Assembly: GCF_900249755.1 (NCBI RefSeq)
Contig: NZ_LT976854.1
Span: 1,526,927 to 1,590,926 of the forward strand
Direction: 5' to 3'
Origin: Cupriavidus taiwanensis
GTDB taxonomy: Bacteria > Pseudomonadota > Gammaproteobacteria > Burkholderiales > Burkholderiaceae
Length of the DNA stretch: 64,000 nt
In this document: piece after piece, positions 17,165 to 30,555 of the stretch
Layout of the letters: each line of letters starts with the position of its first letter
How positions within the stretch are numbered: the first letter of the stretch is position 1
Made by a program: the position numbers and the translations under genes
The notes under the pieces: model-generated
Database searches by the model: none
Told to the model about the DNA's origin: nothing
Seen by the model: only the letters and a program-made list of their open reading frames with translations

Positions 17165-17477
17165 ACCAAAAGCCGGCGGGGAATATTCGCGCCGGCTGAT
17201 AACCACTATTCAACGCCCCGCCTTGAGGTAAACCCTAGGCCGCGGCGACAATCGCGGGGTCAGCGCAGCCGTTCAGCGCCAGGACCATGACAACCATGCC
17301 CCGCCCCGACTCACCCGCGCCGCAGCCGTAGTGACTGGCGGCACGCCATGCCCTGCAGCGGCCGCACCATCGCGGCCGCGCTCCCTGAACATCTGAACCG
17401 TATCCGCGCCAGCCTCCGGGCTGGCCCGCGGATGGCTGCCCTTGCCGCGCAATCTTGCGCCATCCCCAAGGAAACCC
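17165..17477. other. 313-bp intergenic region between the flavoprotein and the molybdenum oxidoreductase operon
   Basis: A hairpin AGCCGGC / GCCGGCT (17171-17197, 13-nt loop) follows the flavoprotein stop and may end the phosphonate transcript, though no T-run follows. Further right, TTGAGG (17223) and GACAAT (about 17247) with an 18-bp spacer form a plausible but unproven sigma-70 promoter for the next operon. No gene is supported. Confidence 0.35.
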
Positions 17478-20321
17478 ATGCCCAGCTTCAACCCTTCACG
17501 GCGCACCTTCCTCAAAGCCAGCGTCGTGGCCGGGGTGTCGGTCTATATCGCACCCATCGGCGGCAAGGCCTTCGCGGCCTTGTTCGAAGACAAGATCCTG
17601 ACCCCCGTGCAGTGGGACGCCAAGGCCGGCGCCCCCCGGTTCCGGATCGACGGCATCGCCAAGGTCAGCGGCGCCAAGGTGTTCGCGCGCGATATCCGCG
17701 CGCGCGACATGCCGCACTGGCCGCAGCAGCAGTCGCACGCCTTCATCCTGCGCGCCACGCAGGCCGACCGCACCTATGAAGGCTTCGACCTCGCGGCGCT
17801 CGGCGACGAGTTGAAGCCTGACCGCGTGGTCACCGCGGCGGACCTGGCCCGCGACGGCGTCGCCTTCCCCGCGTTCTACGGCGACGACATGCTGCTGCCC
17901 GCCGGCAAGACGCCTGCCTACCTGGGCCACGCGGTGGCGATCCTGATCTACCACGACTTCGCGCGCTTCCGCTTTGCCAAGGACAAGCTCAAGTTCCGCG
18001 ACGACGTGATCCGCTACGGCGCAAAGACCGGCGCGCTGGAACGCGATCCGTGGGGCACCTTCCGCTTCGTGCGCGTGGGCGGCGCCACGCCCTACGCGGA
18101 CGATGTGTTCTCCAGCCTGAAAAACGCGCCGGTGTTCCCCAGCATGATGCGCAAGCACCAGCCGGTATGGCCGGACGGCAAGGACCACGGCCAGCTCGGC
18201 GAACAGGGCATGTACCACGCCGCGCAGATCCGCGCGCAACTCGCAAAGCCGTCCGACGACTGGCTGGTGCTGGAGCGCGAGTACAACTCGCAGTCCGTCG
18301 ATACCGCCGCGCTGGAGCCCGACAACGCCAACTGCTGGTACGACGCCGCCGCGCAGGCGCTGCACATGGTGGTGCCGACGCAAGGGCCGAACGAGGTCGC
18401 CGAAAGCGTGGCCGAGATGCTGGCGAAGGCCAGGGGCGCGTTCCCCGTGAAGCAGGTGTTCCTGCACCCGTGCTACACCGTCGGCTACGGCTCCAAGGAC
18501 CACTACAATTTCCCGTTCTACGGCCTGGTCACGGCGCTGTACGCCGAAGGCAAGCCGGTGCGGCTGGCCAACGACCGCTACGAGCAGTTCCAGACCTCGA
18601 TCAAGCGCCACGCCTTCAAGATGCGCTACCGCATCGCGGTGGACCGCAAGACCGGGCTGTTCCAGGCGTTCCAGGGCGACCTGGAGGCCAATGGCGGCGG
18701 GCGCTCCAACTTCTCGCCGTCGGTGGCAATGGTGGGCGCCACCGCGGCGCAATCGATCTACTACTTCCCGAAGAACGACCTGACCGCCGTGGCGATCGCC
18801 TCGCGCGCCGTCGACGCGGGCTCGGCGCGCGGCTACGGCACGCTGCAGAGCATGGCCGCGACCGAGATGATGGTCGACGAATTCGCCGAACAGCTCAAGC
18901 TCGACCCGATCGAGTTCCGGCTGAAGAACGCGCTGCGCTCGGGCATGAAGAACACGCAGGGCGCGATCCCCGCCGGTGCGATCCGCGTCGACGAGGTGCT
19001 GGAAGCGGCCAGGGCCTATCCGTTGTGGACCCACCGCGCCAGCAGGAAGGCGGAGTATGAAGCCGCCAACCCCGGCCGCCGCTATGGCGTGGGCTTTGCC
19101 TGCGTGCAGAAGGACTTCGGCACGGGCGCGGAAGCGTCATTCGCCAAGGTCGAGCTGAAGGCCGACGGCAGCATCGCGCTGCATCATTCCGGCGCCGAGA
19201 TCGGCACCGGCATGTCGACTTCGCAGGCCGCCGCGGTGGCGCGCTGGCTGGGCAAGCCGGCGGGCGAGGTGCGCACCTCCGTCACCGACTGGTCCGACCT
19301 GCCGGTGACCACCTCGGGCGATCCTTACCTGATGAGCCAGGCCGAGCAGGACAAGCTGTCGGCCAACCCGCGCTGGTCGCCGGCCTATGCATCGCCGGCC
19401 AGCGCGACCAACTCGGCGTACTACTTCACGCACAGCACGCGCGAGGCCGCGCGCGTGGTGTTCCTGCACGGCCTGTGGCCGGCGGCGATGGCGATCTGGA
19501 GCCAGGGCATCGGCGGCGGCCAGGCGGCCTCGCTGGTGGTGCGCGTGGAAGACGCGCGCTGGGTCGACGGCAAGCTCAGCGCCGGCGGCCTGCAGGCGCT
19601 GCCGCTGGCGCAGCTCGCGGCCAAGGCGCATGAACTGGGGCTGGTCACCGGCGCCACCGTGCACGCCTTCAACCGCTGGCAATGGAGCGAGGCCGATTTC
19701 GACATCAACGGGCAAGCCGCGCGGCTGCCGGTCGATGGCCTGTCGGTGCGCTACGGCGACGGTGCCGATGGCGTCGATCTCGCGCGCAAGGCGCGCATGC
19801 GCAGCCCCGGCGGCTGGCATGTGCTCGACCGCAGCAAGGTCTATATCGCGCCCACGCAGCGCAACAACGCCGCGGTGACCTACTACAGCGCGGTCGGCAC
19901 CTTCGTCGAGCTGTCGGTGCACGAAGCCAGCGGCAAGGTCGAGATCCTGTCGCACCATTCGATCATGGAATGCGGCACGCAGCTGTCGCCGCAGCTGGTG
20001 TCAGGCCAGCTGCAGGGCGGCATCGCCATGGGCATCGGCCACGCGCTGCATGAATACCTGCCGCTCTACGAGGACGGGCCCGGCAACGGCACCTGGAACT
20101 TCAACCGCTACCACCTGCCGCGCGCCAGCGACGTGGCGGTGTGGAGCCAGACCGGCACGGTGCTGCCGCCGGTCTCGGAAACCGACCCGCCCAAGGGCAT
20201 CGCCGAAGTGGTGATGATTCCCGTGGTGGGCGCCATCGTCAACGGCATCGCGCATGCCATCGGCCACCGCTTCACCGACCTGCCGGTATCGGCGGCCAAG
20301 ATCCAGGAGGTACTGGCATGA
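17478..20321 (+). CDS. Molybdopterin-binding large subunit of a periplasmic aldehyde oxidoreductase (xanthine dehydrogenase family)
   Basis: The 947-residue protein opens with a Tat signal (SRRTFLKASVVAGVSVY), so it folds with its cofactor and is exported. The body is the xanthine-dehydrogenase-type molybdenum domain: AxAH-like KVSGAKVFARDI, AEIGTGMSTSQAAAVA for cofactor contact, and GQLQGGIAMGIGHALHE. The catalytic Glu is E910, in PPKGIAE near the C-terminus. Together with the 2Fe-2S and triheme cytochrome genes that overlap it downstream, it matches membrane-anchored aldehyde dehydrogenases and isoquinoline-oxidoreductase-like enzymes that pass electrons to the respiratory chain. The ATG at 17478 has an AAGGAA site and starts directly at the Tat signal. 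The substrate is probably an aldehyde; an N-heterocycle is possible. Confidence 0.9.
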   Translation: MPSFNPSRRTFLKASVVAGVSVYIAPIGGKAFAALFEDKILTPVQWDAKAGAPRFRIDGIAKVSGAKVFARDIRARDMPHWPQQQSHAFILRATQADRTYEGFDLAALGDELKPDRVVTAADLARDGVAFPAFYGDDMLLPAGKTPAYLGHAVAILIYHDFARFRFAKDKLKFRDDVIRYGAKTGALERDPWGTFRFVRVGGATPYADDVFSSLKNAPVFPSMMRKHQPVWPDGKDHGQLGEQGMYHAAQIRAQLAKPSDDWLVLEREYNSQSVDTAALEPDNANCWYDAAAQALHMVVPTQGPNEVAESVAEMLAKARGAFPVKQVFLHPCYTVGYGSKDHYNFPFYGLVTALYAEGKPVRLANDRYEQFQTSIKRHAFKMRYRIAVDRKTGLFQAFQGDLEANGGGRSNFSPSVAMVGATAAQSIYYFPKNDLTAVAIASRAVDAGSARGYGTLQSMAATEMMVDEFAEQLKLDPIEFRLKNALRSGMKNTQGAIPAGAIRVDEVLEAARAYPLWTHRASRKAEYEAANPGRRYGVGFACVQKDFGTGAEASFAKVELKADGSIALHHSGAEIGTGMSTSQAAAVARWLGKPAGEVRTSVTDWSDLPVTTSGDPYLMSQAEQDKLSANPRWSPAYASPASATNSAYYFTHSTREAARVVFLHGLWPAAMAIWSQGIGGGQAASLVVRVEDARWVDGKLSAGGLQALPLAQLAAKAHELGLVTGATVHAFNRWQWSEADFDINGQAARLPVDGLSVRYGDGADGVDLARKARMRSPGGWHVLDRSKVYIAPTQRNNAAVTYYSAVGTFVELSVHEASGKVEILSHHSIMECGTQLSPQLVSGQLQGGIAMGIGHALHEYLPLYEDGPGNGTWNFNRYHLPRASDVAVWSQTGTVLPPVSETDPPKGIAEVVMIPVVGAIVNGIAHAIGHRFTDLPVSAAKIQEVLA

Positions 20322-20878
20322 GCATCGCCACCCAACCCATCACGCTCAACATCAACGGCAAGGACGTCGGCCCGGTCGACGTGCCCGAAGGCCTGATGAT
20401 GATCGATTTCCTGCATGAATACCTGGACCTGACCGGCTCGCGCCTGGGCTGCGGCCAGGGCATCTGCCACGCCTGCGTGGTGATCCACGACAAGCCCGAC
20501 GGCACCAGCGAGGAAGTGCGCAGCTGCATCACCGGCGCGCACTGGTTCCACGGCCGCAAGGTGCGCACGGTGGAAGGCCACGGCAAGCGCAACGAGCAGG
20601 GCGAGGTGGTCGAGCTGACGCCGGTGCAGCAGAAGTTCCTGGAGCATTTCAGCTTCCAGTGCGGCTACTGCACGCCGGGCTTCGTCAACGGCGCCACCAT
20701 CCTGGTGGAACAGCTCAGGCGCAAGCCGGTGCCGAAGGACCAGGTCGAGGCCACCATCACCAGGGCGCTGGACGGCCACATCTGCCGCTGCACCGGCTAC
20801 GTGCGCTACTACGAGGCGGTCAAGGACGTGATCACCAGCACGCCGGGGCTGGTGCAGGACAGCGGGAGCGACAAGTGA
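20318..20878 (+). CDS. 2Fe-2S small subunit of the aldehyde oxidoreductase
   Basis: The 186-residue protein has the two-cluster layout of xanthine-dehydrogenase-family iron-sulfur subunits. A plant-type ferredoxin site GCGQGICHAC lies near residue 47, with a further Cys in RSCITGAHW. A helical [2Fe-2S] site follows, with QCGYCTPGF near 113 and HICRCTGYVRYYEAV near 150. It relays electrons from the molybdenum centre to the cytochrome. It lacks its own signal peptide and is presumably co-exported with the Tat-bearing large subunit. Its ATG overlaps the large-subunit stop (ATGA). About 20 residues between the two cluster domains (GRKVRTVEGHGKRNEQGEV) are longer than in the simplest members. Confidence 0.93.
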   Translation: MSIATQPITLNINGKDVGPVDVPEGLMMIDFLHEYLDLTGSRLGCGQGICHACVVIHDKPDGTSEEVRSCITGAHWFHGRKVRTVEGHGKRNEQGEVVELTPVQQKFLEHFSFQCGYCTPGFVNGATILVEQLRRKPVPKDQVEATITRALDGHICRCTGYVRYYEAVKDVITSTPGLVQDSGSDK

Positions 20879-22161
20879 TGCAGCGCACGCCCCTGATGAT
20901 CGCCACGCGCGCCGCGCTGGCAGCCATCGCCGCTGCCGCGGCCATGGCGGGCTGCGGCAGCCGCACCGAAGCCATTGCCCCCGCCGCGGACCTGGCGCCC
21001 AAGGCGCAGCTGTCGCCTGCCGAGCAGATCGCGCGCGGCCGCTACCTGGTGCGCGCCGCCGACTGCGCCGCCTGCCATACCGCGCCGCAAGGCGCGCCGT
21101 TCGCCGGCGGCGTGGAACTGGCGTCTCCGTTCGGCAAGTTCTACGGCACCAACATCACGCCGGACAAGACCCACGGCATCGGCAACTGGAGCGCGGACGA
21201 CTTCTACAAGGCGCTGCATGACGGCAAGGCGCCGGGCAAACCGCTCTATCCGGCGATGCCGTACACGTCGTACCGCGGCCTGTCGCGCGCGGATTCGGAC
21301 GCCATGTACGCCTACCTGATGCAGGTGAGGCCGGCCGCCGTGGCCAACCGCCCGCACGACCTGCAGTTCCCGTACAACCTGCGCTTCGCGCTGGCGGGCT
21401 GGAACCTGCTGTTCCTCGAGGACAAGCTGCCGGACGCATCCAAGGGCAATTCGGAGTCGTGGCAGCGCGGCCGCTACCTGTCCAACGCGCTGGGGCACTG
21501 CGCCGAATGCCACACGCCGCGCGCCGCCTTCGGCCGGCTGGATGCGTCGAAGCCGCTGGCCGGCTCGGCGCTGGCACGCGTCGGCGCGCCCGACATCACG
21601 CCAGCCGGCCTGGCCGCGCGCGGCTGGACCGCGGCCGACCTGCAGCAGTTCTTTGCGATCGGCATCGCGCCGCAAGGCTCGGCCTTCGGCGAGATGTACC
21701 CGGTGGTGCATCTGAGCAGCCAGTACCTGAACCAAAGCGACCTGGCCGCGATGACCACCTACCTGCTGGGCGACCAGCCGCCCGCGCCGCAGCCGGTGAA
21801 GGCGGTGAATGCCGACGCCGCGCAACTGGCACCGGGCCGCCGCCACTATGTGGCCGTCTGCGCCGGCTGCCATGGGCGCGAGGGCGAAGGCAAGCCGCAC
21901 GTCGCGGTATCGATGGCCGGCAATTCGACGGTGCGCAACGCCGACGCGCGCAACCTGATCGTGTCGATGCTCGATGGCATCGAGGCGCAGCGCTTCCCGG
22001 GTGTGGAGGCGATGCAGGAGATGCCGGGTTTTGCCGAGCGCATGAGCGACGAGGAGCTGGCGCAGCTGGCGAACTATCTGCGTGCTACGTGGGGTGGGCA
22101 GGCAGCTGATGTGAAGCCGGGTGATGTGAAGGCGCTGCGCGCGGCCGGGCCAGGGCATTAA
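20878..22161 (+). CDS. Triheme cytochrome c subunit of the aldehyde oxidoreductase
   Basis: The 427-residue protein has an N-terminal export signal (ATRAALAAIAAAAAMAGCGS) that ends in a lipobox-like AGC, so it may be a lipoprotein. Three CxxCH heme sites follow: CAACH near residue 62, CAECH near 207 and CAGCH near 327. This is the arrangement of the cytochrome subunit of membrane-bound alcohol and aldehyde dehydrogenases, which transfers electrons to ubiquinone or a terminal oxidase at the periplasmic face. The ATG overlaps the stop of the 2Fe-2S gene (TGATG), completing a tightly coupled three-gene operon. A REP-like element follows. Confidence 0.93.
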   Translation: MQRTPLMIATRAALAAIAAAAAMAGCGSRTEAIAPAADLAPKAQLSPAEQIARGRYLVRAADCAACHTAPQGAPFAGGVELASPFGKFYGTNITPDKTHGIGNWSADDFYKALHDGKAPGKPLYPAMPYTSYRGLSRADSDAMYAYLMQVRPAAVANRPHDLQFPYNLRFALAGWNLLFLEDKLPDASKGNSESWQRGRYLSNALGHCAECHTPRAAFGRLDASKPLAGSALARVGAPDITPAGLAARGWTAADLQQFFAIGIAPQGSAFGEMYPVVHLSSQYLNQSDLAAMTTYLLGDQPPAPQPVKAVNADAAQLAPGRRHYVAVCAGCHGREGEGKPHVAVSMAGNSTVRNADARNLIVSMLDGIEAQRFPGVEAMQEMPGFAERMSDEELAQLANYLRATWGGQAADVKPGDVKALRAAGPGH

Positions 22162-22193
22162 GGCCTGCGCCACCGACGCTAACCATCCCGCCG

Positions 22194-22323
22194 GTTTGCT
22201 CCCCTCTCCCGCTTGCGGGAGAGGGGCCGGGGGTGAGGGCAGGCGCTGGCATACCGACGCGCTTCACTTCGTTGACGCTCCGGCCCTCACCCCCACCCCT
22301 CTCCCGCGCGCGGGAGAGGGGTG
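22194..22323. repeat. REP-like bipartite palindromic element (copy C)
   Basis: A TTTGCTCCCCTCTCCCGC-TT-GCGGGAGAGG arm is followed by GGTGAGGG, a CTTCACTTCG spacer and an opposing CTCTCCCGCGCGCGGGAGAG arm. It begins about 33 bp past the cytochrome stop and is followed by the sigma-54 promoter region. Confidence 0.85.
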
Positions 22324-22381
22324 CGTATGCGAGGGGTGGTGGCAAGCCCAAACGCTGTCGCATGGCAGCGCGATCCGCCAT

Positions 22382-22419
22382 GTGTCCCAGTCTGGGACAC
22401 TCACTGTCACACGCTGACA
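22382..22419. promoter_or_regulatory. Two upstream activator dyads for the sigma-54 promoter
   Basis: GTGTCCCAG-T-CTGGGACAC (22382-22400) is a perfect 9-1-9 palindrome. TGTCA-CACGC-TGACA (22405-22419) is a second dyad. Both share outer TGTC...GACA arms and lie about 65-100 bp upstream of the -24 element, as expected of binding sites for an AcoR-like enhancer-binding protein. Confidence 0.65.
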
Positions 22420-22482
22420 CACCTGGCCCGAGGCCGCGGCCAGATCTTCGATTCCTCCCCCGCTTTTCCGCCCTCCCGCCCC

Positions 22483-22498
22483 CGGCACACCTCTTGCG
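22483..22498 (+). promoter_or_regulatory. Sigma-54 (-24/-12) promoter of the aldehyde dehydrogenase operon
   Basis: CGGCACACCTCTTGCG matches the consensus TGGCAC-n5-TTGC, with GG and GC dinucleotides exactly 10 nt apart. Transcription would start near 22509, giving a leader of about 55 nt before the ATG at 22565. Confidence 0.75.
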
Positions 22499-22564
22499 AT
22501 CTGTTCCCCCGCGCACGGCCCACGCCGTGACGGCACCACACAGATCATTCGAACGGAGCGAGAC

Positions 22565-24085
<1,521 letters not shown>

Positions 24086-24199
24086 CGGTGCTCAAGGCAT
24101 GGCGCAATGGCCCCCTTCAGGGGCCGTGCGCATGCGATGATCCGCTTGTGCCCCGCGGGCGCGGGGCCATCCGGACAAGGAGTCACTCAAGGAGTCGAG

Positions 24200-25228
24200 A
24201 TGCCAGCAACGATGAAAGCCGCGGTAGTGCGTGAATTCGGCGCGCCGCTCGTGATCGACGAAGTTCCTGTTCCTCAACCCGGCCCCGGCCAGATCCAGGT
24301 AAAGATCGCGGCCTCGGGCGTCTGCCATACCGACCTGCACGCCGCCGATGGCGACTGGCCGGTCAAACCCACCCTGCCCTTTATCCCCGGCCACGAAGGC
24401 GTGGGCTACGTTTGCGCCGTGGGCAGCGGCGTGACCCGCGTGAAAGAAGGCGACCGCGTCGGCGTGCCCTGGCTGTACAGCGCGTGCGGCTATTGCGAGC
24501 ACTGCCTGCAAGGCTGGGAGACGCTGTGCGAGAAGCAGCAGAACACCGGCTATTCCGTCAACGGCGGCTATGGCGAATATGTCGTCGCCGATCCCGATTA
24601 CGTCGGCCTGCTGCCCGACAAGGTGGGCTTTGTCGAGATTGCGCCGATCCTGTGCGCGGGCGTGACGGTCTACAAGGGGCTCAAGGTCACCGATACGCGG
24701 CCCGGCCAGTGGGTGGTGATCTCCGGCATCGGCGGCCTTGGGCACGTGGCGGTGCAGTATGCGCGAGCCATGGGGCTGCGCGTGGCCGCGGTCGACATCG
24801 ATGACGGCAAGCTCGCGCTGGCGCGCCAGCTCGGCGCCGAAGCCACCGTCAACGCGCGCACCACCGATCCCGCCGCGTGGCTGCAGAAGGAAATCGGCGG
24901 CGCGCACGGCGTGCTGGTCACCGCGGTATCGCCGATCGCCTTCTCCCAGGCAATCGGCATGGTGCGCCGCGGCGGCACCGTCGCGCTCAACGGCTTGCCG
25001 CCGGGCGAGTTCGGCACGCCGATCTTCGACGTGGTGCTCAAGGGCATCACCATCCGCGGCTCGATCGTCGGCACGCGCAGCGACCTGCAGGAATCGCTGG
25101 ACTTTGCCGCGCACGGCGACGTGAAGGCGACCGTGTCCACCGCGAAGCTCGACGACATCAACCAGGTGTTCGGGCGCCTGCGCGACGGCAAGGTCGAAGG
25201 CCGGGTCGTGCTGGACTTCAACGCCTGA
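24200..25228 (+). CDS. Zinc-dependent alcohol dehydrogenase (AdhP/propanol-preferring type)
   Basis: The 342-residue medium-chain dehydrogenase/reductase has catalytic-zinc ligands in [13 protein letters not shown] (Cys, near residue 38) and PGHEGVG (His-Glu, near 62). The structural-zinc cysteines are in [21 protein letters not shown]. The nucleotide-binding motif [13 protein letters not shown] is at about 175, with [11 protein letters not shown] after it. It interconverts primary alcohols such as ethanol with aldehydes using NAD. A GGAG site precedes the ATG at 24200, 114 bp downstream of acoD, so the pair can carry ethanol to acetate. Confidence 0.93.
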
Positions 25229-25242
25229 CGAGGACCCCATCC

Positions 25243-25638
25243 ATGCCGATTTCCGCATCCGCTGCCCCGTCCGTGGCCCGCGTGGTGGCCACGCCGGCGG
25301 CGCTCGCGCTGATCGCCGAGCTGGCCGCGCGGCACGGCCCGCTGATGTTCCACCAGTCCGGCGGCTGCTGCGACGGCAGCGCGCCGATGTGCTATCCCGC
25401 CGGCGAGCTGCTGGTGGGACCGGCCGATGTCTGCCTGGGCCAGATCGGCGGCGCCGCGTTCTACATGACGCGCGCGCAGTTCGAGTACTGGCGCCACACG
25501 CGGCTGGTGATCGACGTGGTGCCGGGCGCGGGCGGCATGTTCTCGCTGGAGGGACGCACGGGCCGGCGCTTCCTGACGCGCTCGGAGCTGTTCAGCGACG
25601 CCGAGGCCGCGTGGCTGGCGCAACAGCCGGAGCCGTGA
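25243..25638 (+). CDS. DUF779-family protein
   Basis: This is a 131-residue protein of the small family regularly encoded beside ExaC-type aldehyde dehydrogenases. A short signature HQSGGCCDGSAPMC (three cysteines around residues 41-51) is its most conserved part, followed by LLVGPADVCLG and a C-terminal FSLEGRTGRRFLTRSE. The biochemical role is not established. The cysteine cluster suggests metal or thiol chemistry connected with aldehyde oxidation (inference). It begins 14 bp after the alcohol dehydrogenase stop, so it is the third gene of the sigma-54 operon. Confidence 0.9.
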   Translation: MPISASAAPSVARVVATPAALALIAELAARHGPLMFHQSGGCCDGSAPMCYPAGELLVGPADVCLGQIGGAAFYMTRAQFEYWRHTRLVIDVVPGAGGMFSLEGRTGRRFLTRSELFSDAEAAWLAQQPEP

Positions 25639-25720
25639 TCCCCTGGCAGGCGATGGCGTGCGGGGCAACTGGTGCCCGCACGCCATGCCCCGGTTCAGCG
25701 CCGCGGTTCAGCGCCGCGGC

Positions 25721-25963
25721 TCAGCGTTTCTCGTCGAGCAGGTCGTTCAGGATTTCGTCGAAGGTGGCCTGGGCGTCCTCCAGCGCCTGCAGCGCCGCGT
25801 CGAAGGTCTGCAGCGCCAGTTTCGACGGCTTGCCGCTGCCCTGCGGCGGATAGTGAGCCTGCAGCGCCGTGAAGGCGACCTGCACCTGCCGCGTGGCGGC
25901 GACCACGCGTTCCATGGCCTGCGCCTCTTCGGCGCGGTATTGCTCGTGCTTCTGTTCGTTCAT
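25721..25963 (-). CDS. Small conserved hypothetical protein, mostly helical
   Basis: The 80-residue charged protein is MNEQKHEQYRAEEAQAMERV at its start and ends in ILNDLLDEKR. Its composition (Ala, Gln, Glu) and lack of Gly/Pro in the second half suggest two amphipathic helices, possibly a coiled coil. A GGGAG ribosome site precedes the ATG. No family was recognised. It is transcribed divergently from the alpha/beta hydrolase gene at 26154 and convergently with the DUF779 operon. Confidence 0.7.
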   Translation of the reverse strand: MNEQKHEQYRAEEAQAMERVVAATRQVQVAFTALQAHYPPQGSGKPSKLALQTFDAALQALEDAQATFDEILNDLLDEKR

Positions 25964-26153
25964 GCCGGTCGGCTCCCTGAAGGCGCGTCGTCTCGGTGGG
26001 GTGCGCGCGCCCGTATGAGGCATATCGTACAAGAACTGCGCCGGCCGGCTTGCGCCGCGGCCACGCCCCCGGCAAAAATAGGGTAGGCTGCGCGGCTGGG
26101 CGGCAAGGCCGGCGCGCTTGCGCCACGCCTGGCCGCGGCCACCGAAGAATGCC

Positions 26154-27086
26154 ATGCCATTGACCACCCGCCGCGCGCTGGCAGCCGCGCTGATGACCGC
26201 CAGCGGCTTCGCCTGCTACTGGACCTACCTGACCGTGAACCAGGACCGGCTGCTGTTCGACGCGCGCCGGCGCCCGCCGCGCGACCTGCCCGACGGCATC
26301 ATCGGCTATTCGCACCTGATCCCCGGCGGCGTGGTGCGCGGCTACATCTACCACGCCCCCGGCGACAGCGTGCACGACCTGCTGTTCTACCTGCCGGGCC
26401 GCGGCGAGGATGTGCTGGAAACGCTGCAATACGCACGCTGGCTGCCCGCCGGCATGGCCTTCGCCACCTACGATTACCGCGGCCTGGGCCACTCCGACGG
26501 GCGCCCGTCCGAGGGCGCCGCGGTGGCCGACGCCAGCCAGTTCCTGCTGCACGTGCGGCGCGTGTTCCCCGAGACCCGCGTGCACGTGGTGGGGCGCAGC
26601 CTGGGCACCGGCGTGGCGATCCAGCTGGCGGACCTGCAGGATTTCGAGAGCCTGCAGCTGATCACCCCCTACGACTCGCTGCTGGAACTGGTGCGCAAGC
26701 GCTTTCCGCTGGTGCCCCTGCGCCAACTGATGCGCCACCACTTCGATTCGATCTCGCATTGCAAGAAGGTCGTGCAGAGCACCAAGGTGCTGCTGGCGGC
26801 TACAGACGAAGTGGTGCCGCACGCCTGCTCGGAACGGCTCATGGCGGCCTGGCCCGGCCCGGTGGCGCTGCAGACCGTGCCGGACACCGATCACTTCACC
26901 ATCATCGAGCGCGAGCAGACCTGGCTGTCGCTGTGCGAATTCGCGCGCCAGCACAGCCAGGCGCGCTTGCGCGTGGCGGCGGTGCAGTCCGCGCCGCCGC
27001 AGCCAGCGCCGGCGAGCCCTCCCGCACCGCAGCCGGTCGACCATGACGAGCTGGGCAATCCCCTGCCGCTGGCGGCAAACCGCTGA
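26154..27086 (+). CDS. Alpha/beta hydrolase with N-terminal membrane anchor
   Basis: The 310-residue protein starts with a short hydrophobic segment (LAAALMTASGFACYWTYLTV) that probably anchors it in the inner membrane. Its hydrolase domain has TYDYRGLGHSDG near residue 107, the nucleophile elbow VGRSLGTG (Ser near 145), a late Asp in AATDEVVPH, and the catalytic His in DTDHFTI. The C-terminal 45 residues are Ala/Pro-rich and likely disordered. This is the BEM46-like or lysophospholipase-like hydrolase group; the substrate is unknown. It is followed after 57 bp by the penicillin-binding protein gene. Confidence 0.85.
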   Translation: MPLTTRRALAAALMTASGFACYWTYLTVNQDRLLFDARRRPPRDLPDGIIGYSHLIPGGVVRGYIYHAPGDSVHDLLFYLPGRGEDVLETLQYARWLPAGMAFATYDYRGLGHSDGRPSEGAAVADASQFLLHVRRVFPETRVHVVGRSLGTGVAIQLADLQDFESLQLITPYDSLLELVRKRFPLVPLRQLMRHHFDSISHCKKVVQSTKVLLAATDEVVPHACSERLMAAWPGPVALQTVPDTDHFTIIEREQTWLSLCEFARQHSQARLRVAAVQSAPPQPAPASPPAPQPVDHDELGNPLPLAANR

Positions 27087-27143
27087 GCCGGCCGCCGGGT
27101 CGGTGAAGCCGGGCCGTCAGGTGCAGCGGGTAAAATGCGGCCC

Positions 27144-29267
27144 ATGAAAAAATTCGCAGTCAAGGCAGGCGGCGCCGCGCTGGCGCTGGCTGCCGCCGGC
27201 GCCTTGTTGGCCGGCTTTGCCGCCGTGGTCAGCCTGCGCCAGCTTCCCCCCGTCGAAGCGCTGCGCGACTACCGGCCCGATGTGCCGCTGCGCATCTACA
27301 CCAGCGACCACGTCCAGATCGGCGAGTTCGGCAGCGAGCACCGCGAGTTCATCCCCTTCGAGCAGATCCCGCGGCGCATGGTCCAGGCGCTGCTCGCCGC
27401 CGAGGACGACCAGTTCTACGAACACCAGGGCATCGACATCCCCGGCGTGTTCCGCGCCGCGCTGGCCAACCTCGGCCAGCGCTACGCACAGGGCGCTTCG
27501 ACCATCACCATGCAGGTGGCGCGCAACTTCTACCTGACGCGCGAGAAGACGCTGGCGCGCAAGTGGTATGAAATGCTGCTGGCCTGGCGCATCGACCACG
27601 CGCTGCCCAAGGACCGCATCCTCGAGCTGTACATGAACCAGGTCTACCTGGGCGAGCATGCCTATGGCTTCGGCAGCGCCGCGCACGCGTACTTCGGCAA
27701 GCCGCTGGCGTCGCTGTCGCTGGCCGAGAGCGCGATGCTGGCGGGCCTGCCGAAAGCACCTTCGGCCGTGAACCCGGTGGTCAATTTCGCGCGTGCCAAG
27801 CGGCGCCAGGAATATGTGCTGGGTCGGATGCTGGCGCTGGGCATGATCAGCCAGGACGACTACCGCGAAGCCCGCGCCACGCGCCTGGTGATCACCGACG
27901 ACAGCCCCGGCAGCTTTGCCGGCCATGCCGAACACGTGGCCGAACTGGCGCGCCAGCTGGCGCGCGAGCGCTTCGGCGACGAGGCCTACACGCGCGGCCT
28001 GAACGTCTACACCACGGTGTCTTCCGTGCGCCAGACCCTGGCCTACGATGCCGTGCATGGCGGGCTGGAGGGCTACGCGCGCCGCCACCGCCAGTTCGTC
28101 AGGGACCTGTCGCAAGGCCCGCAGGCCGCGCTGGTGTCGCTCGACGCCGGCAGCGGCGCGATCGAGGCCATGGTCGGCGGCGCCGACTTTGGCGCCAGCC
28201 GCTTCAACCACGCCACCCAGGCGCAGCGCCAGCCCGGCTCGACCTTCAAGCCCTTCATCTATGCCGCGGCGCTGGAGCGCGGCGTGTCGCCCGGCACGCT
28301 GATCAACGACGCGCCGCTGCCCAATGGCTCCCGCTGGCAGCCGTCCAACGACGACGGGCGCTTTGTCGGCCCCATCACCGTGCGCCAGGCGCTGGCCGAA
28401 TCGCGCAACCTGCCGGCGATCCGCACGCTGCAGGCGATCGGCATCCCCTATGCGGTGGAATTCGCCAGCCGCTTCGGCTTCTCGCCCAGGCGGCTGCCGC
28501 GCTACCTGCCGCTGGCGCTGGGCACCGGCACCACCTCGCCGCTGCGCCTGGCGGCGGCCTACGGCGTGTTCGCCAACGGCGGCCACCGCATCGAGCCCTA
28601 CCTGATCGAGCGCATCACCGACAGCGAAGGCAACGTGCTGTTCAGTGCCAACCAGGACACCGACGAGCGCCCGGCGCCGCCGCCCGTGATCAGCGCGCGC
28701 AATGCCTTCGTCATGGACAGCCTGCTGCGCAGCGTGGTCGATGCCGGCACCGGCGCCGGCGTGCGCCGCTACCTGCGCCGCGACGACGTGGCCGGCAAGA
28801 CCGGCACCACCAACGACTCGGTCGACGGCTGGTTCGCCGGCTATGCCGGCGGCGTGGTCACGGTGGCGTGGATGGGCTATGACGACAACCGCAGCCTGGG
28901 CGAGCGTGAGTTCGGCGCGACCACCGCGCTGCCGGTGTGGGCCGCCTACATGGAGGGCCGCCTGGCCGGCGTGCCGGAGGCCGACGCGCAGGCGCCCGCC
29001 GGCGTGGTGCAAACCGGCGGCGAGTGGATCTACGCCGAGAACGCCGACGGCAGCCACGGCATCGCCTCGATCGGCTTCCCGCCGCCAGCGCCGGCTGCGA
29101 CGCCGGCCAGCCCGCCGCTGACGGACCCGTTCGCCAGCAACGGCCCGGCGCAGGCCGCACCCGGTGCGCCAGCCGCGCCAGGCGCACCCTCCGCGGCCGC
29201 GCCCACCCCCGTGACCAGCGAGGCGCCAGCCGCCGCGCCGGCCGCACCCGCCGACAACCCGCTGTAG
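27144..29267 (+). CDS. Class A penicillin-binding protein (transglycosylase/transpeptidase, PBP1 family)
   Basis: The protein is about 707 residues. After a single N-terminal transmembrane helix (AALALAAAGALLAGFAAVV) comes a GT51 glycosyltransferase domain at about 55-225, with EDDQFYEHQGID and GASTITMQVARNFYL. The penicillin-binding transpeptidase domain follows at about 300-590: PGSTFKPF is the SxxK active-site motif, ESRNLPA the SxN motif and GKTGTTND the KTG motif. It polymerises and cross-links peptidoglycan in the periplasm. The last 70 residues are Pro/Ala-rich low complexity. TAAAAT-like bases just upstream (27131-27136) would leave almost no leader if they form the -10 box. An alternative start is 27135. 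Confidence 0.92.
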   Translation: MKKFAVKAGGAALALAAAGALLAGFAAVVSLRQLPPVEALRDYRPDVPLRIYTSDHVQIGEFGSEHREFIPFEQIPRRMVQALLAAEDDQFYEHQGIDIPGVFRAALANLGQRYAQGASTITMQVARNFYLTREKTLARKWYEMLLAWRIDHALPKDRILELYMNQVYLGEHAYGFGSAAHAYFGKPLASLSLAESAMLAGLPKAPSAVNPVVNFARAKRRQEYVLGRMLALGMISQDDYREARATRLVITDDSPGSFAGHAEHVAELARQLARERFGDEAYTRGLNVYTTVSSVRQTLAYDAVHGGLEGYARRHRQFVRDLSQGPQAALVSLDAGSGAIEAMVGGADFGASRFNHATQAQRQPGSTFKPFIYAAALERGVSPGTLINDAPLPNGSRWQPSNDDGRFVGPITVRQALAESRNLPAIRTLQAIGIPYAVEFASRFGFSPRRLPRYLPLALGTGTTSPLRLAAAYGVFANGGHRIEPYLIERITDSEGNVLFSANQDTDERPAPPPVISARNAFVMDSLLRSVVDAGTGAGVRRYLRRDDVAGKTGTTNDSVDGWFAGYAGGVVTVAWMGYDDNRSLGEREFGATTALPVWAAYMEGRLAGVPEADAQAPAGVVQTGGEWIYAENADGSHGIASIGFPPPAPAATPASPPLTDPFASNGPAQAAPGAPAAPGAPSAAAPTPVTSEAPAAAPAAPADNPL

Positions 29268-29301
29268 ACTTGCCGCTTCCACGCTTTCCGTCCCGAACCC
29301 G

Positions 29302-30555
29302 ATGTCCAGCCACAGCCCGCTGCTGATCTGGTCGGTCGCCGCGCTGACCACCGCTGGCGTCCTGTTCCGTCCCTTCCGCCTGCCCGAAGCCTTCTGGGCC
29401 GCCGGCGGCGCGCTGCTGCTGTGCGCCACCGGCCTGATGGCGCCGCCCGAGGCGTTGGCCGCGGTGCTGCGCGGCCATGACGTGTACCTGTTCCTGGCCG
29501 GCATGATGCTGATTGCGGAACTGGCCCGCAAGACCGGCCTGTTCGACCACGTTGCCGCGCTCGCCGTGCGCCAGGCGCGCGGCTCGGCGCCGCGGCTGTT
29601 CCTGCTGGTGTATGGCTTCGGCACGCTGGTGACGGCGTTCATGTCCAACGACGCCACCGCGGTGGTGCTCACGCCCGCGGTGCTGGCCGCCACCCGCGCC
29701 GCGCGCGTGCGCCAGCCGCTGCCCTACCTGTACGCCTGCGCCTTTATCGCCAACGCCGCCAGCTTCGTGCTGCCGATTTCCAACCCGGCCAACCTGGTGA
29801 TTTTCGGCGAGCGCATGCCGCCGCTGGCGGGGTGGCTGGCCAGCTTCGCGCTGCCCTCGCTGGCCGCGGTCCTGGCGACGCTGGCGGCGCTGTGGTGGAC
29901 CCAGCGCGCGGCGCTGGCCGAGCCCATCGCGCAGGACGTGCCGGTGCCGCCGCTGTCCCGCCAGGCGTGGCTGAGCGCGCTGGGCATCGTGCTGACCGGG
30001 CTGGTGCTGCTGGTGGCCTCGCTGCGCGGCAGCGCGCTGGGCTGGCCCACCTGCGCCGCCGGCGTGGCCACGCTGCTGCTGGTCTGCGCCACCCGGCGCG
30101 AACTAATGTGGCCGACGCTGCGCGGGGTGTCATGGGGCGTGCTGCCGATGGTGGCGGGGCTGTTCGTGCTGGTGGCGGCGCTGGAGCAGACTGCTGTGAT
30201 CCGCCACCTTGCCGACGCCGTTGCCGCGGCCTCGCGCGATGGCGGCGCGCTGGCGCTGCTGGGCGTGGGCGCGGTGGTGGCGCTGGCGGGCAATCTCGCC
30301 AACAACCTGCCGGCGGGGCTGATTGCCGCGTCGGCGCTGGATGCCGGGCAGGCCTCGCATGCGGTCAGCGGCGCGGTGCTGGTCGGCATCGACCTGGGCC
30401 CCAACCTGTCCGTCACCGGCTCGCTCGCCACGCTGCTGTGGCTGACGGCGCTGCGGCGCGACGGGCTGCAGGTCAGCGCCGGGCAGTTCCTGCGCGTGGG
30501 CGCGGTGGTCATGCCGGCGGCCATGCTGCCGGCGCTGGCGCTGCTGCTGCTTTAG
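29302..30555 (+). CDS. ArsB/NhaD-superfamily ion permease
   Basis: The 417-residue, highly hydrophobic protein has about 11-12 membrane spans. It carries the ion-transporter signatures FLAGMMLIAELARKTGLF near residue 65, FMSNDATAVVLTP near 112 and a second half repeat GNLANNLPAGLIA near 330, with NLSVTG later. The paired short re-entrant motifs (SND and NN-P) are typical of arsenical pump and NhaD/CitM-like carriers. No arsR or arsC lies nearby, so arsenite export is only one option; a sodium- or anion-coupled carrier is equally possible. It starts 34 bp after the PBP gene on the same strand. Confidence 0.85.
   Translation: MSSHSPLLIWSVAALTTAGVLFRPFRLPEAFWAAGGALLLCATGLMAPPEALAAVLRGHDVYLFLAGMMLIAELARKTGLFDHVAALAVRQARGSAPRLFLLVYGFGTLVTAFMSNDATAVVLTPAVLAATRAARVRQPLPYLYACAFIANAASFVLPISNPANLVIFGERMPPLAGWLASFALPSLAAVLATLAALWWTQRAALAEPIAQDVPVPPLSRQAWLSALGIVLTGLVLLVASLRGSALGWPTCAAGVATLLLVCATRRELMWPTLRGVSWGVLPMVAGLFVLVAALEQTAVIRHLADAVAAASRDGGALALLGVGAVVALAGNLANNLPAGLIAASALDAGQASHAVSGAVLVGIDLGPNLSVTGSLATLLWLTALRRDGLQVSAGQFLRVGAVVMPAAMLPALALLLL

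Follow-up and report, generated by a model that had tools for sequence, protein, structure and literature searches.

Organization of the acoD control region

Which activator serves the acoD promoter of Cupriavidus taiwanensis, and from where does it act, when no activator gene is found in its expected place beside the operon? The window, that is, the whole stretch of DNA that was analysed, is 64,000 nucleotides long and lies in a genome of 5.95 Mb. The following features, given in window coordinates, are involved.

22383 to 22399, no strand: predicted upstream activator site 1, TGTCCCAGTCTGGGACA, a perfect 17-bp dyad (19 bp with the flanking G/C)
22405 to 22421, no strand: predicted upstream activator site 2, TGTCACACGCTGACACA, in the conserved 17-bp register; it starts 22 bp after site 1
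22484 to 22497, plus strand: sigma-54 -24/-12 element, GGCACACCTCTTGC (GG-n10-GC)
22565 to 24085, plus strand: acoD/exaC, NAD-dependent acetaldehyde dehydrogenase, 506 aa (NCBIfam AcaldDHExaC NF050026, 942.5 bits, cut-off 900)
24200 to 25228, plus strand: adh, AdhP-type zinc alcohol dehydrogenase (NF006940 AdhP, 356.4, cut-off 344)
25243 to 25638, plus strand: DUF779 protein (PF05610, 1e-45)
25639 to 25720, no strand: expected place of the acoD-linked activator gene, occupied in 16 relatives between DUF779 and the next small gene, which are adjacent here

We take the AcoD protein of Alcaligenes eutrophus to be of the same length as the one encoded here. A sequence-only reading had described a palindrome, a second dyad, and a -24/-12 element upstream of acoD, and all three were found where it had placed them. 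The 19-bp palindrome, GTGTCCCAG-T-CTGGGACAC, occupies 22382–22400, and the TGTCA-n5-TGACA dyad occupies 22405–22419. The GG-N10-GC sequence at 22484–22497 has the -24/-12 form and the nearness to a gene start that define a sigma-54 promoter. Its last base is 67 bases short of the acoD ATG (22565), and transcription is expected to start at about 22509. The palindrome by itself is unremarkable and not rare, as the window contains four perfect palindromes with arms of at least 9, compared with 0–6 in 20 Markov simulations. It is conservation, not rarity, that argues for a real palindrome.

The flanking sequences showed several other features. Judged from translations only, the genes at 17442–22161, upstream on the same strand, appear to encode a molybdenum-type periplasmic aldehyde oxidase (large and 2Fe-2S subunits) and a multi-haem cytochrome c. 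Two strong hairpins with perfect arms of 12 and 15 bp are found between the cytochrome gene and the promoter (22182–22340), and they themselves belong to a larger inverted repeat. A part of this stretch, CCGGTTTGCTCCCCTCTCC, is also present upstream of acoD in four other genomes (G044, G008, G046, and G055), and the hairpins are possibly a REP-like element. No terminator-like site was found at 22150–22600. The adh gene lies between acoD and DUF779 in this genome; in the nine closest aligned relatives, the 7.7 kb that was fetched showed no adh.

Conservation of the promoter and its paired sites

Sixty Cupriavidus genomes were searched, an AcoD match was present in 45, and the loci of 40, including that of this genome, were compared. 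AcoD identity within this group reaches 99%. G048 (short contig), G019 (83%), and G030, G006, and G012 (66–67%) were left out, as were the second copies of lower similarity in G002 and G032. Sites were scored with a model made from 22 distinct sites of genomes that encode an activator beside acoD, with the clade of this genome left out of training.

The sequence GGCA-N6-TTGC was found in all 40 Cupriavidus acoD promoters, 71–119 bases ahead of the start. Paired sites (both scoring at least 10), 19–23 bp apart, were present in 34 of 40. The sequence-only reading had held that absence of the dyads from orthologous promoters would speak against it; this was checked and is not so, as 39 of the 40 keep a strong 17-bp TGT-N11-ACA site (score of at least 14). 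In the clade of this genome, both sites were found in all ten aligned members, with scores of at least 10.1 and a distance of 21–22 bp. Among the left-out genomes, G048 has both sites and the promoter, while a single strong site (20.8, 26.8, and 21.0, respectively) and a -24/-12 element of the TGGCCC type are present in G030, G006, and G012. The promoter of G019 is present and its site is weak (8.6), and no site was found by the model in the acoD promoter of G057. As is typical of enhancer-type sites, these are dyads with a fixed half-site spacing that are conserved 80–200 bp upstream. Comparison among relatives supports a sigma-54 promoter with two upstream sites.

The comparison also changed the description of both sites. 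The commonest form of site 1 is TGTTCC-N5-GGAACA; close relatives mostly have TGTTCCAATCTGGAACA or nearly this sequence at site 1 and TGTCACGCGCTGGCACA or nearly this sequence at site 2. Site 1 of this genome has C and G at two symmetric positions compared with TGTTCC/GGAACA, and the dyad is still perfect. The TGTC...GACA ends, earlier taken as the defining feature, are a symmetric variant of this genome and were ruled out as the defining sequence. The second dyad is present, but its 15-bp TGTCA-n5-TGACA register was given up, because the aligned relatives conserve a register of 17 bp.

The half-site spacing was counted as TGT-Nk-ACA between -280 and -100. For k=11, the 40 Cupriavidus loci gave 62 occurrences and 40 other-genus loci gave 36, compared with 0–5 for every other k between 4 and 19. 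The acoD coding sequence, a control with six times as much sequence, gave a count of 2 for k=11 and of 18 for k=9, the latter being a reminder that shared descent repeats counts. The other-genus set consisted of 40 loci from 39 genomes of the same family, hand-picked from the 72 non-Cupriavidus genomes that had a match (160 searched). Half-sites vary in these loci (TGTTCA, TGTTCT, and TGTCGC), and in 22 of the 40 no TGT-N11-ACA dyad with at least five matched pairs is found in 380 upstream bases. In two of them (L077 and L095, Achromobacter and Advenella), the acoD-linked activators have HRST in place of SRNT in the recognition helix, and repeats of the CTGTCG/CGACA type were seen by eye in the upstream regions. 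This pairing is a possible helix-to-site code; the other-genus loci are too few and uneven to tie a half-site to a helix.

The form found at site 1 of this genome, TGTCCC-N5-GGGACA, also occurs as arrays in other Cupriavidus. Ten of the 60 genomes contain 4–11 copies; the majority are of the type TGTCCCRASTYGGGACA, and almost all are gathered in a single stretch of about 2 kb (L256 in G046, L264 in G054, L257 in G016, L339 in G018, and others). The stretches L256, L264, and L257 contain no open reading frame of at least 120 codons with high third-position GC, and the arrays could be binding arrays of a centromere or replication type. An arrayed repeat as the origin of the acoD sequence was rejected, as this genome has a single copy, the acoD site.

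Absence of the acoD-linked activator

Of the 40 Cupriavidus genomes, 22 encode an AcoR-type enhancer-binding protein near acoD. In 21 of these, the gene is on the opposite strand and falls inside the 7.7 kb that was fetched; in G020, it is 16 kb away and intact (646 codons). It is located between DUF779 and the small gene in 16 of the 22, and in 15 of these the small gene is followed by an alpha/beta hydrolase gene within the fetched stretch. In this genome, the order is DUF779, small gene, hydrolase, with no activator in between, and no remnant was found in the window at 22000–30000 by tblastn with the linked activator of G003 as query (E 1e-6). The absence of a linked activator supports the earlier suggestion that the activator acts in trans. 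The same arrangement without an activator was found in six members of the clade (G054, G051, G059, G037, G046, and G045) and also in G055, G016, and G043. For G044, G008, and G014, the fetched stretch showed no copy of the small gene. G058 has kept an activator fragment matching residues 398–604. Because of this relic and the linked activators present elsewhere in the order, the acoD-linked activator was probably lost here and not gained elsewhere.

AcoR-like proteins and the sites they share

With 35 of 35 candidates scored, only two AcoR-like proteins of this genome align with the AcoR query from the sensor domain onward. One is AcoR, whose gene lies near acoX-acoA. The other is encoded at C2:508137-510059 on the minus strand, on the same contig and about 1 Mb from acoD, where it is clustered with the gene of a PQQ alcohol dehydrogenase (exaA) and with pqqB, pqqC, and pqqE. 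This pqq-linked protein has about 51% identity to the acoD-linked activators and about 34–35% to AcoR. The recognition helix SRNT[IV]YR is common to the pqq-linked and acoD-linked proteins, whereas that of AcoR is SRMTLYR. In the activator tree (FastTree, topology alone), the acoD-linked and pqq-linked proteins stand together and AcoR stands apart. The acoD-linked activator of Polaromonas falls in the pqq-linked branch, and its promoter has TGTTCCACAAAGGAACA.

The pqq-linked activator is present in 17 of 18 genomes without a linked activator and in 14 of 22 with one (Fisher two-sided 0.027, ignoring phylogeny), where six of the eight absences among the linked genomes rest on a partly scored search and G052 was counted as a presence with its protein in two pieces. 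In G002 and G020, no pqq-linked protein was found with complete scoring. The distance between acoD and the gene of the pqq-linked activator is no more than about 16 kb in G031, G033, and G057.

The acoD site model was used to find which promoters share the site, with a background of 80749 17-mers drawn solely from the window and a single further region. It gave 21.6 for site 1 and 15.4 for site 2 at the acoD promoter of this genome (0 of 80749 as high for each). Two promoters of the pqq cluster share the site: the score was 17.7 in the region that separates the pqq-linked activator from the divergently transcribed cytochrome gene (0 of 80749 background) and 11.6 at exaA (2 of 80749 background windows), and the pqqA region has no strong site (best 1.9). 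Outside training, 17 of the 18 genomes that lack a linked activator had a strong site; 12 of these 17 share a 17-mer with the training set, whereas the two sites of this genome do not. Site 2 of most other clade members equals a training sequence. A genus-wide search for pairs of a site and a sigma-54 element gave the acoD promoters and many other places, real and chance ones unsorted; C1:755255 is a further such place looked at in this genome.

The sites of the pqq cluster were also seen in relatives. A strict TGTNNC-N5-GNNACA lies beside the sigma-54 promoter of the pqq-linked activator in 14 of the 20 relatives fetched, weaker versions were seen by eye in five more, and in G059 no such sigma-54 promoter was found. 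The site is only 4 bp from the activator's own -24 and therefore may be a negative site or belong to the divergent promoter of the cytochrome gene. At exaA, a site of at least 11.1 was present in 19 of 21 promoters, the other two being cut short by the choice of region; these sites are weaker than the acoD sites. G059 encodes the pqq-linked activator, but exaA gave no match there at E 1e-100 (12 of 12 candidates scored), and thus the two are not always together.

G014 has neither the linked nor the pqq-linked activator (38 of 38 candidates scored), and both acoD sites are kept. It also has exaA with the same promoter sites (L317), while pqqB, pqqC, pqqE, the cytochrome c gene, and the activator are absent from the 19 kb fetched around exaA. 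Both promoters may plausibly have been orphaned by a recent deletion. The exaA product of G014 is perhaps an orphaned quinoprotein dehydrogenase.

Proposed mechanism and alternative explanations

In the proposed mechanism, RNA polymerase with sigma-54 would bind the -24/-12 element. An AcoR-type enhancer-binding protein, composed of a GAF sensor, an AAA+ domain, and a Fis-type HTH, would bind the two 17-bp TGT-N11-ACA sites, which lie two helical turns apart with their centres about 95–120 bp ahead of the expected start. The activator would then drive open-complex formation in response to an alcohol or aldehyde signal. In many Cupriavidus, this protein would be the one encoded just downstream of the operon, the gene that is missing in the clade of this genome. 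Here, the pqq-cluster paralogue would most likely serve the acoD sites in trans, and exaA, the cytochrome c gene next to it, and the paralogue's own gene appear to be under its control as well. The computation shows the promoter element, the sites and their conservation, the missing gene, the paralogy, and the similar sites at exaA and at the promoter of the pqq activator; that the paralogue binds and activates acoD, and with which inducer, is inferred from these. Taken as a whole, a sigma-54 control region for acoD-adh-DUF779 whose sites are served in trans by the pqq-cluster paralogue is the best explanation, and we consider it likely.

The gene name implies a different regulator, namely AcoR, encoded near acoX and acoA and activating acoD in trans. 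An AcoR-like activator had been proposed in the sequence-only reading; the comparison agrees with a member of the AcoR family, and AcoR itself did not hold up as the first choice. A model of the acoX box was made from four distinct sites of eight relatives; the acoX comparison comprised nine promoters, including that of this genome, as 12 of 20 fetched regions had missed the promoter. The box is 15 bp long (TGT-N9-ACA) and different from the acoD site. Its model gave 18.7 at the acoX promoter of this genome and 0.8, which is chance, at acoD, and the acoD model gave a best score of -3.5 at acoX, which is also chance. By these reciprocal models, the acoD promoter does not share the acoX site and falls outside the AcoR regulon proper. 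The difference in recognition helix also stands against AcoR. In its favour, AcoR is present in this genome and in G014, where both other activators are missing and the sites are kept, and by eye site 1 of this genome is somewhat nearer to the acoX box (TGTCCAGTCTGTACA in relatives) than are the acoD sites of relatives. Activation by AcoR is unlikely on this evidence, and the activator is most likely its family paralogue from the pqq/exaA cluster, which appears the better candidate.

It is still less probable, though not negligibly so, that the promoter is orphaned, with no activator recognising its sites well and their persistence reflecting recent loss or low expression. G014 indicates that sites can outlive both activators. 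Against this, the departure of site 1 from TGTTCC/GGAACA is symmetric and leaves the dyad perfect, and every aligned clade member keeps both sites at a nearly constant distance. The palindromes might also have nothing to do with sigma-54 control and be, for instance, a repeat element or a hairpin that terminates the upstream gene, given that perfect arms of 9 are not uncommon among palindromes of the window and large hairpins lie just upstream. The lack of a terminator-like site and the conservation of position and half-sites in most of the genus, and of spacing in many loci of the family, appear to have largely refuted this explanation, which we regard as very improbable.

The promoter is therefore of a known kind, with its local activator probably lost and its operator probably taken over by the pqq-cluster paralogue. 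In a fuller form, which we favour slightly, the linked activator would have been lost in several lineages (this clade, G055, G016/G043, and G058 with its 207-residue relic), and the operator would have been kept under selection because the pqq paralogue reads the same 17-bp site and already could, or came to, control acoD. The evidence against the pqq paralogue includes G014, which keeps the sites with neither activator, as a caveat; G057, which has the pqq-linked activator and no acoD site; and the weak site of G019.

The mechanism would be ordinary sigma-54 activation. The less ordinary part is that the dedicated activator is missing and that the best candidate for the operator is a paralogue from the PQQ-alcohol cluster. 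If the takeover is true, acetaldehyde oxidation has been folded into the PQQ-alcohol regulon, and the acoD regulator suggested here is other than the gene name implies. Relatives with both activators, with only one or the other, and in one case with neither have closely similar operators and provide a natural experiment, in which the sharing or division of binding sites among sigma-54 activators of the same family becomes directly testable.

Comparison with known systems

A literature search that covered titles and the beginnings of abstracts, with subscription papers mostly outside it, gave no account of this site, of the missing linked activator, or of control of acoD by the pqq cluster; this is weak evidence of novelty. 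The acoD gene of A. eutrophus (Cupriavidus necator; Priefert et al. 1992) is the same gene as the one described here. The acoD paper on A. eutrophus is cited among the references for sigma-54-transcribed genes in the introduction of one article (PMC11704786). Ralstonia solanacearum requires rpoN1 to grow on ethanol, and its exaC is predicted to be regulated by an AcoR homologue encoded next to it (RSc3128/RSc3129; PMC4676750). As described there, that system resembles the present one in its enzyme, its AcoR-type activator, and its predicted sigma-54 control, but its activator gene adjoins exaC, whereas the gene is missing here.

TGT-N10-12-ACA is the usual site type for several enhancer-binding proteins, including NifA, FhlA, and 15 clostridial groups, and clostridial AcoR has a distinct motif (PMC6615313). 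Compared with the sites described there, the acoD sites have the same TGT/ACA half-sites and a spacer of 11 that falls within N10-12, whereas the inner half-site TCC/GGA and the regulated genes differ. AdhR of Clostridium beijerinckii is described in PMC7017808 as a GAF-containing activator that uses several upstream sites at sigma-54 promoters of alcohol genes. On that description, the acoD system is similar in all three respects, namely a GAF activator, several upstream sites, and sigma-54 promoters of alcohol genes, and AdhR differs in its lineage and genes, in an extra PAS domain, and in having three sites, compared with two here.
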